A stretch of 64,000 bases of DNA from Amphiplicatus metriothermophilus. GTDB taxonomy: Bacteria; Pseudomonadota; Alphaproteobacteria; Caulobacterales; Parvularculaceae. The translations under genes were made by a program, and so were the position numbers. Each line of letters starts with the position of its first letter. The first letter of the stretch is position 1. This document shows positions 29,761-63,869 of the stretch, piece by piece. The stretch is taken from NCBI RefSeq assembly GCF_900199215.1, contig NZ_FZQA01000003.1, forward strand, positions 1 through 64,000, given 5' to 3'. The notes under the pieces were generated by a model. It was not told the DNA's origin. It was given only the letters and a program-made list of their open reading frames with translations, and searched no databases.

Positions 29761-29835
29761 TGGTGGGCGCGGCTGGGTTCGAACCAGCGACCCCTACGGT
29801 GTGAACGTAGTGCTCTCCCGCTGAGCTACGCGCCC
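29761..29835 (-). tRNA. tRNA-Val (anticodon CAC)
   Basis: 75 nt on the minus strand with a full cloverleaf: acceptor GGGCGCG/CGCGCCC, D arm GCTC..GAGC, anticodon stem CTACG/CGTAG with loop TTCACAC (anticodon CAC, reads GUG valine), T arm GCTGG/CCAGC with loop TTCGAAC. The 3' CCA is encoded. A run of five T on the transcribed strand follows directly, and a short CGCC/GGCG hairpin lies beyond it. Confidence 0.97.
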
Positions 29836-59769: not shown

Positions 59770-60843
59770 ATGATACCCCAGGAAAAGCTCGACGCGCTCG
59801 TCCGCAAATTCGAGAGCATCGAAGCGAAAATGTCGACGGCGACAAAGCCGGAAGAAATCGTGCGTCTCTCGAAGGAGCACGGCGAGCTGAAGCCCGTCGT
59901 GGAGAAAGCCCGCGCGCTCACCGACGCGCGCCGGCAGATCGAGGAGCTCAAGGAGCTCGCCGAAAGCGACGATGCGGAGATGGCCAGGCTCGCCTATGAC
60001 GAGCTGGTCGAGGTCAAGGAGCGCGCGCCGAAGCTCGAATATGATTTGCAGCTCATGCTGCTGCCGAAGGACAAGGCCGACGATTCGAGCGTCATCCTCG
60101 AAGTGCGCGCCGGCACGGGCGGAGACGAGGCGGCGCTGTTCGCCGGCGACCTTTTCCGCATGTATCAGCGCTATGCGCAGCTTCAGGGCTGGCGCGTCGA
60201 GGTTCTTTCCGCCTCCGAAGCGGAGATGGGCGGGTACAAGGAGATCCAGGCGAGCATTTCCGGCGACGGCGTCTACGCCAAGATGAAGTTCGAATCGGGC
60301 GTGCATCGCGTGCAGCGCGTGCCGGAGACGGAGACGCAGGGGCGCATCCACACCTCCGCCGCGACCGTCGCGGTTCTACCCGAGCCGGAGGAAGTAGATG
60401 TCGAGATCAAGGAGTCCGACCTGCGCATCGACGTCTTCCGCGCCTCCGGCCCCGGCGGTCAGTCGGTGAACACCACGGACTCCGCAGTGCGCGTCACCCA
60501 TTTGCCGACCGGGATCGTCGTCAGCCAGCAGGACGAGAAGTCCCAGCACAAGAACCGCGCGAAGGCGATGAAAATCCTCCGCGCCCGGCTCTATGAGATG
60601 GAACGCGCGCGCGCCGAGGCCGAGCGCGCCGCCGCGCGCAAGGGCATGGTCGGCTCCGGCGACCGATCGGAGCGCATCCGCACCTACAACTTTCCGCAAA
60701 GCCGGGTGACCGACCACCGGATCAACCTGACCGTGCACAATCTCGACGAGATCCTGCGCGGCGACGGTCTCGGCCAGATCATCGACGAGCTGATCGCCCA
60801 GGACCGCGCCGACCGGCTCGCCGCGATGCAGGCGGAGGGATAA
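59770..60843 (+). CDS. prfA: Peptide chain release factor 1
   Basis: A 357-residue release factor for UAG and UAA stops. The GGQ motif (GPGGQSVN, residues 229-231) is the target of PrmC methylation. The anticodon-like PVT-type motif is in the middle domain (about residue 187, near [14 protein letters not shown]), and [14 protein letters not shown] follows. The stop TAA is itself part of a strong Shine-Dalgarno sequence (TAAGGAGG), which should belong to prmC but is separated from it by a repeat element. Together with prmC this is a functional pair. Confidence 0.97.
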
Positions 60844-60851
60844 GGAGGATT

Positions 60852-60970
60852 CAGGGCTTAGGCTTTAGGAATTAGCGTAAGGGCGTCAAATCCTGATGCG
60901 GATGAATTGCGCGTCACAACGATCAAGAAAACCCTAGCCCTTAAACCTAACGCCTAAAACCTAAGCCCTG
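60852..60970. repeat. Long imperfect inverted repeat between prfA and prmC
   Basis: The left arm (60852-60883) and right arm (60938-60970) are complementary over about 27 of 33 positions; the outer 11 bp (CAGGGCTTAGG) are perfect. The loop is 54 bp. The arms use a TTAGG/CCTAA-rich sequence unlike the surrounding coding DNA. The element lies entirely between the Shine-Dalgarno at 60842-60849 and the prmC ATG at 60992. Confidence 0.75.
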
Positions 60971-60991
60971 CCCCCTGACGCCTGAAACCTG

Positions 60992-61837
60992 ATGACGCCG
61001 ACGCTCGACCAATATACCCGCGCCGCCGCGGCGCGTCTCGGCGGTTCAGACACGCCGCAGCTCGACGCGCGCGTCATCGTCAAGCATGCGTTCGGGCTTG
61101 ACGACGCGGGCCTCATTCTCGAAGCGGGACGCGAATTGACGGCGGAGGAAGTCGCAAGACTCGACGCGCTCGTCGCCCGCCGCGCCGCCGGCGAGCCGGT
61201 CGCCTATATCGTCGGCGAGAAGGAGTTCTGGGGGCTGAGCTTCCGCGTCGCGTCCGGCGTTCTCGTTCCGCGCCCGGATTCAGAGACGCTGATCGAGGCC
61301 GCCGCGCGGCGCCGTCCGCCGGAGGCGGCCTTGCGCATTCTCGATCTTGGGACGGGGACGGGGTGTCTCGTCTGCGCGCTGCTTCGCGCTTTCCCCAACG
61401 CGACCGGGATCGCCCTCGATCGCAGCGAAACCGCCGCGCGGCTCGCGCGCGCGAACGCCCGGAGGCTCGGGCTCGCCGCCCGGCTGACGGCGGTCTGCGG
61501 CGACTGGGGCGCGCCGATCGCGGGCCGCTTCGACCTCGTCGTCTCGAATCCGCCCTACATTCCCGAAGGCGACAGGGAAAAGCTGGCGGCGGGCGTGCGC
61601 GATCATGAAGACCCCGCCGCGCTGTTCGCCGGCCCCGACGGGCTCGACGCCTACCGCCGGATTCTGGGCGCCGCGCCCGACCTGCTCGCGGACGGCGGGT
61701 TAATGATTCTTGAACTGGGCGAAAGGCAGGATGGTCCCGTGGCCGCTCTGGCGCGGGGGGCGCTCCCGCAGGGGCGGATCGCGATCGAGGCCGACCTCGC
61801 CGGCCGCCCGCGCGCGCTTGTCATCGATCTGGCGTGA
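60992..61837 (+). CDS. prmC: Release factor glutamine N5-methyltransferase
   Basis: A 281-residue methyltransferase that modifies the Gln of the GGQ motif of release factors. The N-terminal helical domain is followed by the SAM site LDLGTGTGCLVCALL, and the catalytic SNPPYIPE (NPPY at 186-189). Both are diagnostic. ATG 60992 has no ribosome site nearby; the obvious one overlaps the prfA stop, about 142 bases upstream, with an inverted repeat in between. Followed by a promoter-like sequence for the next gene. Confidence 0.96.
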   Translation: MTPTLDQYTRAAAARLGGSDTPQLDARVIVKHAFGLDDAGLILEAGRELTAEEVARLDALVARRAAGEPVAYIVGEKEFWGLSFRVASGVLVPRPDSETLIEAAARRRPPEAALRILDLGTGTGCLVCALLRAFPNATGIALDRSETAARLARANARRLGLAARLTAVCGDWGAPIAGRFDLVVSNPPYIPEGDREKLAAGVRDHEDPAALFAGPDGLDAYRRILGAAPDLLADGGLMILELGERQDGPVAALARGALPQGRIAIEADLAGRPRALVIDLA

Positions 61838-61859
61838 TTTTCCGCGGACAAAAAAGTGT

Positions 61860-61887
61860 TTGAAATGCCATCCGGCCCCGTTATGAT
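61860..61887 (+). promoter_or_regulatory. Promoter for the DUF4167 leader
   Basis: TTGAAA (61860-61865) and TATGAT (61882-61887) with a 16-bp spacer, just after the prmC stop. Both boxes match five of six consensus bases. It would start a transcript near 61894, with a leader of roughly 276 nt before the DUF4167 ATG. Confidence 0.6.
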
Positions 61888-61893
61888 GCCCTC

Positions 61894-62169
61894 AAGACGA
61901 GCGAACGCGCCGATGGCGTCTTGCAGTTCCGACGCCGTTTCGCTTCGATGTCTTACTCCACGTAGGTCTGACTCGCCGGGCGCAGCGAAAGCTGCGGGGC
62001 GTGAAGCCCAAGCGCCGCAGGCGGACCGAACGGAATGTCGCCGAGGACGGGAAGTCTGCGGAAGACAGGGTTGCGCCGCGTCGCGGAGAACGCGCGGCGC
62101 AGGCGCGGAGCGGCGCTCCGCCCGCAGGGGATAACGCGCACTTTGAATGACGACAGATAGGAAAGTTCC
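61894..62169 (+). other. Hairpin-rich leader upstream of DUF4167 (candidate structured RNA)
   Basis: A 332-bp gap follows prmC; most of it would be transcribed from the promoter at 61860. It holds several perfect stems: CGCAGC/GCTGCG with a GAAA tetraloop (61981-61996), GTCT/AGAC (62054-62066), GCGCCGCG/CGCGGCGC (62073-62100) and GCGGAGC/GCTCCGC (62105-62121). No open frame here has a ribosome site. It does not look like tmRNA, RNase P, SRP or 6S RNA to me. Confidence 0.45.
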
Positions 62170-62727
62170 ATGAAGCGTGGCCGCAACCAACGCCGCCGGC
62201 AGGGCATGAATATTAACCGGGCCTTCGATTCGAACGGACCCGACGTTCGAATCCGCGGCACGGCGAATCAGATCTACGACAAATATCTCGCGCTGGCGCG
62301 CGACGCCTCGTCGGCCGGCGATCGCGTCAAGGCGGAAAACTATCTTCAGCACGCCGAGCATTATTTCCGGGTGCTGCGCGCCATGCAGCCCTCCGCGCCG
62401 ACGCCGGCCGACCAGCCCGAGGACGACGGCGAGCAGCCGACGATCGGCGAGCCGCAGGAGCGCCAGCGCCCCGCCCCGCATCGTCAGAACGAGCCGGCCG
62501 CCGCAAATGCCGAGAAGAGCGCCGGATCGGGATCGGGGAATGGCGAGGCGCCCTCGGAGGGCTCGCGCGAGACTGCGGCCGAAGACGGGGAGGCCGCCGC
62601 CCGCCAGAACGGCGAAAGCGAAACGCGCCGCCGCCGCCGCCGGCCGCGCCGTCAGGGCGCCGCCGGCGCGGAGGAATCAGAGGCCGGCGAGCGCGAGGAA
62701 GAGGCCGCCCCGGCCGCGGCTTCCTGA
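62170..62727 (+). CDS. DUF4167 domain protein
   Basis: A 185-residue protein. The N-terminal 75 residues carry the DUF4167 motif: basic start (MKRGRNQRRRQG), then GPDVRIRGTANQIYDKYLAL and AENYLQHAEHYFRVLRAM. The remainder is low-complexity and acidic, with Arg-rich runs near 155. The family is alphaproteobacterial with no proven function. The basic head suggests nucleic-acid or ribosome contact. It has a hairpin-rich leader and its own promoter candidate. The ATG at 62170 follows AGGAAAG. Confidence 0.92.
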   Translation: MKRGRNQRRRQGMNINRAFDSNGPDVRIRGTANQIYDKYLALARDASSAGDRVKAENYLQHAEHYFRVLRAMQPSAPTPADQPEDDGEQPTIGEPQERQRPAPHRQNEPAAANAEKSAGSGSGNGEAPSEGSRETAAEDGEAAARQNGESETRRRRRRPRRQGAAGAEESEAGEREEEAAPAAAS

Positions 62728-62849
62728 CGCCGGCGGCGAGGGCGGGCTGAGGGCGACCCCGGCCGATGGACTCCATCCCACGGGTCGGAATAAACGCGGG
62801 GGGCTTTTCGTCGTCCCGGAGCGAAGAGCTCTCGAATGAAAGGTCGCCT

Positions 62850-63869
62850 ATGTCGGCGTCGTCGCGGCTTCTGCCTGGCGTTCCGCTCGTCGAGTCGCCC
62901 TTGTTCTCGTCGGCCCTCGACGAGATGAACCTGACCGAAAGCGAACGCGACATCGCCGTGCAGCTGAATGCGCGCGGCTACGCCGTATTCGACTTCCCTG
63001 ATGACGAGCTCGATGCGCGCATCGAGCGCATCAAGGCGGCCCTGTCCGCGCATTTTCAGATCGACTTCGCGGACCCGCGAGCCGTCCGCGAGATCAAGGG
63101 CGGCCTGCGCATCCAGGACGCGTGGAAGCAGAACGAGGACGTGCGGGCGATCGCCTGCAACAGCCGCGTCATCGCGCTTTTGAGCAAGCTCTATGGCCGG
63201 CGGGCGTTTCCTTTCCAGACGCTGAACTTCCCCGTCGGCACGCAGCAGCACATGCACAGCGACTCCGTGCACTTCTCGAGCATCCCGGAACGCTTCATGT
63301 GCGGCGTATGGCTCGCCATGGAGGATGTGAGCCCCGACGCCGGCCCGCTCGTCTATTATCCGGGCTCGCATAAATGGCCGATCCTGACCAATGACGCGCT
63401 GAACCTGCGCCGGCTGCCCGAGCCGAGCCAGTCTGCGCAGAAGCCCTACGAGCCCGTCTGGCGCGCCATGACGGAGGAAGCCGGCCTCGCGCCCGAGCGC
63501 TTTTGCGCGCGCAAGGGCCAGGCGCTGATCTGGGCGGCCAATCTGCTGCATGGCGGCGACCGTCGAAACGATCTTGCGCTCACCCGCTGGTCCCAAGTGA
63601 CGCATTATTATTTCCACGGCTGCGCCTATTACACGCCGGCCTATTCCAATCCCGCCATCGGCCGCCTCTGGCTGCGCGAGATCGAGGACGCGGCGACCGG
63701 CGCGCGCGTCGAGAACGTCTATATCGACGCGCCGATCCGCAGCCAGCTCCGTCATGCGGAGCCGACGCCTTCGCCGGGAGCAAGGCCTCTGTGGCGCCGA
63801 CTGCTCGCGATGGGCGGCCGGCTCGCGCGCAAGGCCCGCGCCGCGCAGCCGCCGCCGCGGCGAAACTGA
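62850..63869 (+). CDS. Phytanoyl-CoA dioxygenase-like 2OG-Fe(II) oxygenase
   Basis: A 339-residue PhyH-family oxygenase. His136 and Asp138 in QQHMHSDSVHF are iron ligands, and His234 in NLLHGGDRRND is the likely third ligand, with the following Arg for 2-oxoglutarate. A second His174 (PGSHKWP) is also conserved-looking. Members hydroxylate diverse acyl or small-molecule substrates. Substrate unknown. I chose ATG 62850 with AAAGGT upstream; an earlier frame start (62766) has no ribosome site. It is the last complete gene of the window. Confidence 0.85.
   Translation: MSASSRLLPGVPLVESPLFSSALDEMNLTESERDIAVQLNARGYAVFDFPDDELDARIERIKAALSAHFQIDFADPRAVREIKGGLRIQDAWKQNEDVRAIACNSRVIALLSKLYGRRAFPFQTLNFPVGTQQHMHSDSVHFSSIPERFMCGVWLAMEDVSPDAGPLVYYPGSHKWPILTNDALNLRRLPEPSQSAQKPYEPVWRAMTEEAGLAPERFCARKGQALIWAANLLHGGDRRNDLALTRWSQVTHYYFHGCAYYTPAYSNPAIGRLWLREIEDAATGARVENVYIDAPIRSQLRHAEPTPSPGARPLWRRLLAMGGRLARKARAAQPPPRRN

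Follow-up and report, generated by a model that had tools for sequence, protein, structure and literature searches.

Upstream of the DUF4167 gene of Amphiplicatus metriothermophilus lies what is very probably a conserved, structured leader for which Rfam has no family, extending from position 61894 to position 62169 of the window, that is, the whole 64,000-nt stretch of DNA analyzed here. The leader likely exerts control over DUF4167 in cis, and its best reading is that of a new, fast-diverging cis-acting element. The sequence-only reading of the locus had suggested that the leader is either autoregulatory or an sRNA in its own right. A conserved structured leader is supported by covariation among the leaders of a sister genus (g2), by the architecture that the window shares with its nearest relative (L003), and by a widely kept promoter, whereas an independent sRNA is disfavored because the leader contains no terminator-like site and because 26 of 27 and 19 of 21 matches to two leader models abut DUF4167.

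A promoter and a long leader between prmC and DUF4167

In the Pfam domain search of the window, the gene upstream of DUF4167 was identified as prmC (PrmC_N, E = 2.6e-19), ending at 61837. The promoter that the sequence-only reading had placed after prmC is present (Table 1) and is the sole consensus promoter on either strand of the 61600-62900 region, where 0.1 sites are expected per shuffle. Transcription is predicted to start at about 61894, and the leader from there to the base before the DUF4167 gene is 276 nt long, the length originally claimed. Judging from Caulobacter, in which 57% of the 5' UTRs span 15 to 60 nt and those of 286 mRNAs exceed 100 nt (PMC4117421), a leader of such length is uncommon. 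The terminator-like sites in the same region, at 61679-61701 on the forward strand and 62303-62288 on the reverse strand, both lie outside the leader, and its own promoter together with the terminator-free run to the start codon marks it, by motif only, as a cis leader. The leader sequence is single-copy at the DNA level in its own genome, which is 98% complete. A 92-aa ORF at 61856-62134 matches no Pfam family at E 0.001. Directly downstream of DUF4167, the window carries a phytanoyl-CoA dioxygenase family gene (PF05721; 62766-63869).

Table 1. Features of the prmC-DUF4167 locus in the window
Feature	Coordinates	Strand	Description
Sigma70-type promoter	61860..61887	+	TTGAAA-N16-TATGAT; -35 at 61860-61865, -10 at 61882-61887; directly 3' of prmC
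P1	61894..61954	+	5' stem enclosing the hairpin 61915-61936; stops one base short of the 5' arm of P0
P0, 5' arm	61956..61959	+	CUCC, junction-closing helix; pairs with 62127-62130 in the two-sequence consensus
P2	61965..62027	+	Arms GGUC (61965-61968) and GACC (62024-62027), enclosing P3; two-sequence consensus
P3	61981..61996	+	Hairpin CGCAGC-GAAA-GCUGCG; no part of the family alignments is better conserved than its counterpart
P4'	62072..62101	+	9-bp perfect hairpin; absent as a hairpin from the window-L003 consensus
P5	62105..62121	+	Hairpin before the P0 3' arm; two-sequence consensus
P0, 3' arm	62127..62130	+	GGGG, 39 nt upstream of the start codon; two-sequence consensus
Likely Shine-Dalgarno sequence	62159..62165	+	AGGAAAG, from sequence; sister-genus alignment has an AGG-containing site close to AUG (by eye)
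DUF4167 gene	62170..62727	+	185 aa; PF13763, E = 2.6e-32, 111.3 bits against a curated cut-off of 25 bits

The arrangement is common among relatives. prmC was recognized upstream of DUF4167 in 148 of 169 loci, a count in which several genomes are present twice and identical regions are not collapsed, and the gap between the two genes ranges from 149 to 676 nt, with a median of 271. When identical regions are counted once, a sigma70-like promoter (a TTG-type -35 plus a TANNNT or CTA-type -10) lies 3' of prmC in 118 of the 153 distinct loci, which overlap in ancestry; shuffles predict 5.7, an expectation that is optimistic because the pattern was composed after many of the same sequences had been inspected. 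The leaders defined by these promoters have a median length of 249 nt (112-464). In five same-genus relatives (L013, L014, L015, L020, and L021), the DUF4167 start codon lies 18 nt further upstream, and the -10 element, as judged by eye, is mostly of the CTAGA type instead of TATNAT.

The leader had reminded the sequence-only reading of no Rfam family, and none of the Rfam 15 families reaches its gathering threshold there. At E values up to 10, the best match (17.5 bits) falls outside the leader, and RsmY inside it scores 12.3 bits against a threshold of 57. Searched at gathering thresholds, the whole window yields only a tRNA, a gene on the reverse strand at 29764-29835. Likewise, the DUF4167 leaders of 40 loci from relatives have no Rfam match (20 searched at E up to 1 and 20 at gathering thresholds). 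The one hit at gathering thresholds, to the CrfA sRNA in Asticcacaulis (L124:5719-5840; 53.1 bits, cut-off 38), is on the same locus but located outside the DUF4167 leader.

Hairpins and folding of the window leader

Counting non-overlapping perfect hairpins with a stem of at least 6 bp and a loop of 3-12 nt gives exactly four in the leader, in agreement with the earlier claim of at least four, one of them GAAA-looped: P4', P5, P3 (with the GAAA loop), and the inner hairpin of P1. Dinucleotide shuffles contain 1.08 such hairpins on average, and 9 of 1000 reach four; when stems of at least 5 bp are counted, four is an ordinary number, reached in 372 of 1000 shuffles. The total folding energy is also unremarkable (-126.8 versus -122.3 kcal/mol, z = -0.86, with 38 of 200 shuffles as good), and total fold energy was discarded as an uninformative test of structure.

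When the leader is folded alone, the outer pairs of P1 have probabilities of 0.78-0.99 and the inner pairs of P3 at least 0.98. P2 reaches 0.93, falling to 0.52 when coding sequence is added, P5 0.48-0.66, and P4' at most 0.34, its 3' arm being paired elsewhere in the consensus with L003. The P1 segment was additionally folded for 15 of 33 sequences, 14 of which were scored, as L016 lacks the UCC; the z-scores range from -2.36 in the window to +0.78, so this test locates the stem rather than establishing its significance. The junction-closing P0 has a probability of 0.07-0.08 in the window leader alone, and forcing it costs 1.2 kcal/mol (-118.7 versus -119.9). In the leader-only minimum fold, UCC at 61957-61959 instead pairs with GGA at 62160-62162 inside the Shine-Dalgarno sequence, which is weak evidence because nearly every Shine-Dalgarno sequence could pair with UCC. 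When 11 coding bases are included, 61958-61963 pairs with the coding start instead.

Comparison with the nearest relative brings out a common architecture. Although 118 of the 272 aligned bases differ between the window and L003, the two leaders share one consensus consisting of P1, the CUCC-GGGG helix, P2, P3, and P5. The consensus energy is -225.2 compared with -190.9 (sd 8.4) for column shuffles, which preserve conservation and gaps, not dinucleotides, and none of 200 shuffles is as low. A compensatory change supports P2 (columns 81/139), but the 11 double changes between the two sequences do not exceed those of column shuffles (mean 14.4; 189 of 200 reach 11).

Covariation in the sister genus

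For the family, 58 leaders were listed, three duplicates were dropped, and L182 and L183 are truncated; 31 leaders entered alignment A2, and 22 sister-genus leaders entered alignment A3, which excludes the genus of the window, L009, and L187. The structural tests within the family were confined to the genus of the window and g2. RNAalifold found only three pairs in A2, in which the 5' stems vary in length and misalign, and for this reason the A3 subset was used. With RIBOSUM scoring, RNAalifold folds the 22 leaders into P1 followed by a UCC-GGG helix (P0) that closes a junction containing P2 to P5, the GGG arm of P0 being positioned about 20 nt before the AUG.

The two-sided changes that had been named as the test of the stems in relatives were found in these 22 leaders, in which base pairs are kept through such changes. 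Paired cells amount to 82.5%, against 77.7 (sd 0.7) in shuffles; 18 pairs show double changes (13.0, sd 1.9; reached in 2 of 500 shuffles); and both the 58 double-change cells (29.0, sd 4.6) and the covariation score of 0.215 (0.143, sd 0.010) exceed all 500 shuffles. When the 3' arms are slid, no more than 42.7% of cells are paired, and the maxima are 41 double-change cells, a score of 0.107, and 15 double-change pairs; as A3 itself was the source of the structure, this control favors it. Of the 58 double-change cells, 44 fall in P1 and P4, and the P1 homologue (helices 1 and 2) covaries. P0 (helix 3) is 97% paired and its sequence hardly varies, so its support comes from pairing, not covariation; the P3 counterpart (helix 6) is 97.7% paired.

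By eye, many rows of A3 display a direct repeat, AGUCxGGCU, present twice (columns 83-92 and 131-140) and flanking a small P2 loop; the repeat could represent a doubled binding site. A conserved upstream ORF was considered as well, since AUGA around GCAUGA recurs, but was rejected because the frames end differently (by eye).

Model R1, built from A3 minus L178 and L181, barely recognizes the window. With default filters there is no match at E 1; with filters off on 301 bases, the best match scores 6.6 bits, compared with 5.6 bits for a match on the opposite strand, and although it begins at the right UCC and spans P3, it places the GGG arm at 62068-62070. Accordingly, the link between the genus of the window and g2 is one of layout, not of model score: both have a P1 ending next to UCC, a GCAGC hairpin, and a hairpin before GGGG. 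In L009, which belongs to another genus, R1 matches at the right place (12.7 bits, E = 0.0032).

Caulobacteraceae leaders

Among 38 aligned Caulobacteraceae leaders, 19 were picked by eye, and 17 remained in alignment A5 after L073 and L082 were dropped. In these, 96% of cells are paired between a 5' GUCUCC-x-CCC and GGGC-GGAxGAC, which closes a junction in a manner resembling the Parvularculaceae leaders. Covariation over the whole structure does not exceed that of shuffles (0.180 versus 0.173; 128 of 500). Nor do its 12 pairs and 23 cells with double changes outnumber those of slid versions (up to 16 pairs and 26 cells), although in the latter at most 54.5% of cells are paired. The GGAxGAC strand has an alternative partner, a downstream GUCUUC, with which it forms at least 5 bp in 13 of 17 leaders (composition shuffles: mean 6.1, maximum 11); its pairing with the 5' GUCUCC is bulged, at least 5 bp being bulge-free in 6 of 17. 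A choice of GGAxGAC between GUCUCC and GUCUUC is a possible switch in Caulobacteraceae.

In the aligned Caulobacterales loci, the start of DUF4167 (AUGAGAGAUUUCAAGGG-AUG, MRDFKGM) is near-invariant at the nucleotide level too, as if the leader element extended into the coding sequence or translation had a second start.

Distribution of the leaders

R1 matches occur in 26 of 62 family genomes, all of genus g2, in which they cover 26 of 28 genomes; both remaining g2 genomes lack a DUF4167 match. Of the 26, 20 belong to leaders that went into the model and six are in genomes outside it. All but one of the 27 R1 matches lie directly before DUF4167, the remaining one being weak (E = 4.6e-4). Model R2, representing the Caulobacteraceae leaders, has matches in 21 of the 200 genomes of the order, each a member of family f3; some of these matches may be model members. 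Nineteen of the 21 precede DUF4167, and the two weakest (E = 8.7e-5 and 9.9e-4) are located on other contigs. For both models, the figure of one match per genome holds among the best first-look candidates scored per genome (44 for R1 and 14 for R2), and further weak copies may exist. Across the strong matches to either model, DUF4167 is the constant downstream gene, as befits a cis leader.

Neither model bridges families. Tried on 99 loci as a bridge to other families, R1 found only L081:691-731 (E = 0.0018) and L101 (E = 0.74), and R2 was rejected as a bridge across the order, with no match outside family f3 among the 200 genomes. The L081 match, to the part of R1 comprising AAAAC-GCAUGA plus a hairpin, lies away from the DUF4167 leader.

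The DUF4167 protein

A DUF4167 match is present in 59 of 62 family genomes and in 322 of the 385 alphaproteobacterial genomes sampled. A literature search returned no functional study of DUF4167, only passing single mentions, and no text with PF13763. The N-terminus of the protein is basic, with a conserved KR-R, and its charge prompts the guess that DUF4167 may bind RNA. The predicted fold (mean pLDDT 76) combines a beta hairpin with a helical hairpin. Comparison with solved structures yielded no relative (best E 0.56), and a Foldseek search with the predicted fold gave no significant match (best E 0.9). The top Foldseek match of the helical hairpin is a variant of Rop/Rom, itself an RNA-binding helical hairpin; at E 0.9 and with so generic a fold, it is not evidence of kinship.

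Proposed mechanism and alternatives

Our best single guess, offered tentatively and by analogy, is autoregulation, in which the structured leader would act through a UCC-arm switch with the DUF4167 protein itself as the trigger. The DUF4167 mRNA would start from its own promoter just 3' of prmC, and the CUCC that follows P1 would pair either with the downstream GGGG as P0, closing the multi-hairpin junction, or with the GGA within the Shine-Dalgarno sequence. This choice would free or mask the ribosome site and so set DUF4167 translation, with the binding of a factor favoring one of the two states. The likeliest factor may be DUF4167 on its own leader, in the manner of ribosomal protein leaders; self-binding is the first candidate because the protein is small and basic and because of the analogy with S15.

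In the case of S15, different RNA structures serve one RNA-binding protein in different phyla (PMC4137082). The alphaproteobacterial rpsO leader resembles the DUF4167 leader in being a structured 5' leader that includes the ribosome-binding region and, as here, leader structures for one protein are unrelated across lineages; the DUF4167 case differs in that RNA binding by the protein is only putative and its leader has no Rfam match. The ffh and rpsB motifs of Alphaproteobacteria are likewise conserved RNAs before one gene, found by comparative genomics, and some orders lack the ffh motif (PMC2704228). These motifs precede other genes, and the text of that report mentions neither prmC nor hemK. 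The alphaproteobacterial intergenic RNA ar45 (RF02347) adjoins the speF leader (PMC7717549); it was considered as a neighbor of the prmC-DUF4167 locus and rejected, given that its neighbor is speF instead and that it has no match in the leader or its genome; a search for the family matched 4 of 142 genomes.

An extension of autoregulation to the whole class appears doubtful: RNA-binding DUF4167 would be served everywhere by an autoregulatory leader whose sequence and helix layout are rebuilt in each family, while the device of the UCC-rich arm stays constant. Within such a scheme, this 5' arm would either close a junction with a G-rich arm or be diverted, to the Shine-Dalgarno sequence in the window, and, in Caulobacteraceae, by a downstream arm taking its partner strand.

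Alternatively, and rather improbably, the leader might sense a signal other than DUF4167, be it a metabolite (as a riboswitch), a ribosomal protein, RNase E, or temperature, with the UCC rearrangement still setting translation. The conserved unpaired stretches after P3 in the sister genus (GGAAC, GCAUGA) and the switch-like GGAxGAC alternative in Caulobacteraceae would suit such a sensor, but among the few candidates scored per genome the strong matches precede DUF4167 alone, a gene of unknown function. Moreover, riboswitch cores typically stay fixed, and the single-genus model finds no other genus of the family. In the window, 28 nt separate the G-rich P0 arm from the Shine-Dalgarno site downstream of it, and the distance is shorter in the sister genus; an arm so placed would also fit a constitutive mRNA stability element or a ribosome standby site operating without a regulator; such an element, which has no obvious need for helices conserved by covariation (a weak objection), is improbable. 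Slightly more improbable still is that the leader is the source of an sRNA that is released by processing or early stop and acts elsewhere, as its own promoter and the stable P1 at the extreme 5' end might suggest; the lack of a terminator-like site, the joining of the strong matches to DUF4167, and the closeness of P0 to the start codon (about 20 to 40 nt) all argue against it. Functionless chance hairpins in GC-rich DNA, compatible with the ordinary fold energy, the frequency of hairpins of at least 5 bp in shuffles, and the meager R1 score of the window, are very improbable in view of the g2 covariation, which beats both the shuffle and the slid controls, the window-L003 consensus energy, the count of hairpins of at least 6 bp, and the promoter conserved in relatives.

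The conserved leader offers a direct handle on a widespread, unstudied protein: if DUF4167 binds its own leader, Caulobacter would allow the RNA target and the role of the protein to be tested. The leader would also exemplify a regulatory RNA whose divergence is too rapid for a single covariance model to cover a family.

A possible repeat upstream of prmC

Between prmC and an ORF ending at 60843, which we take to be prfA-like, the window contains what to the eye resembles a long inverted repeat of TTAGG/CCTAA-like words (60845-60991). This gap occurs in one full copy in the genome, and a 28-nt piece of it (93%) is present on another contig.
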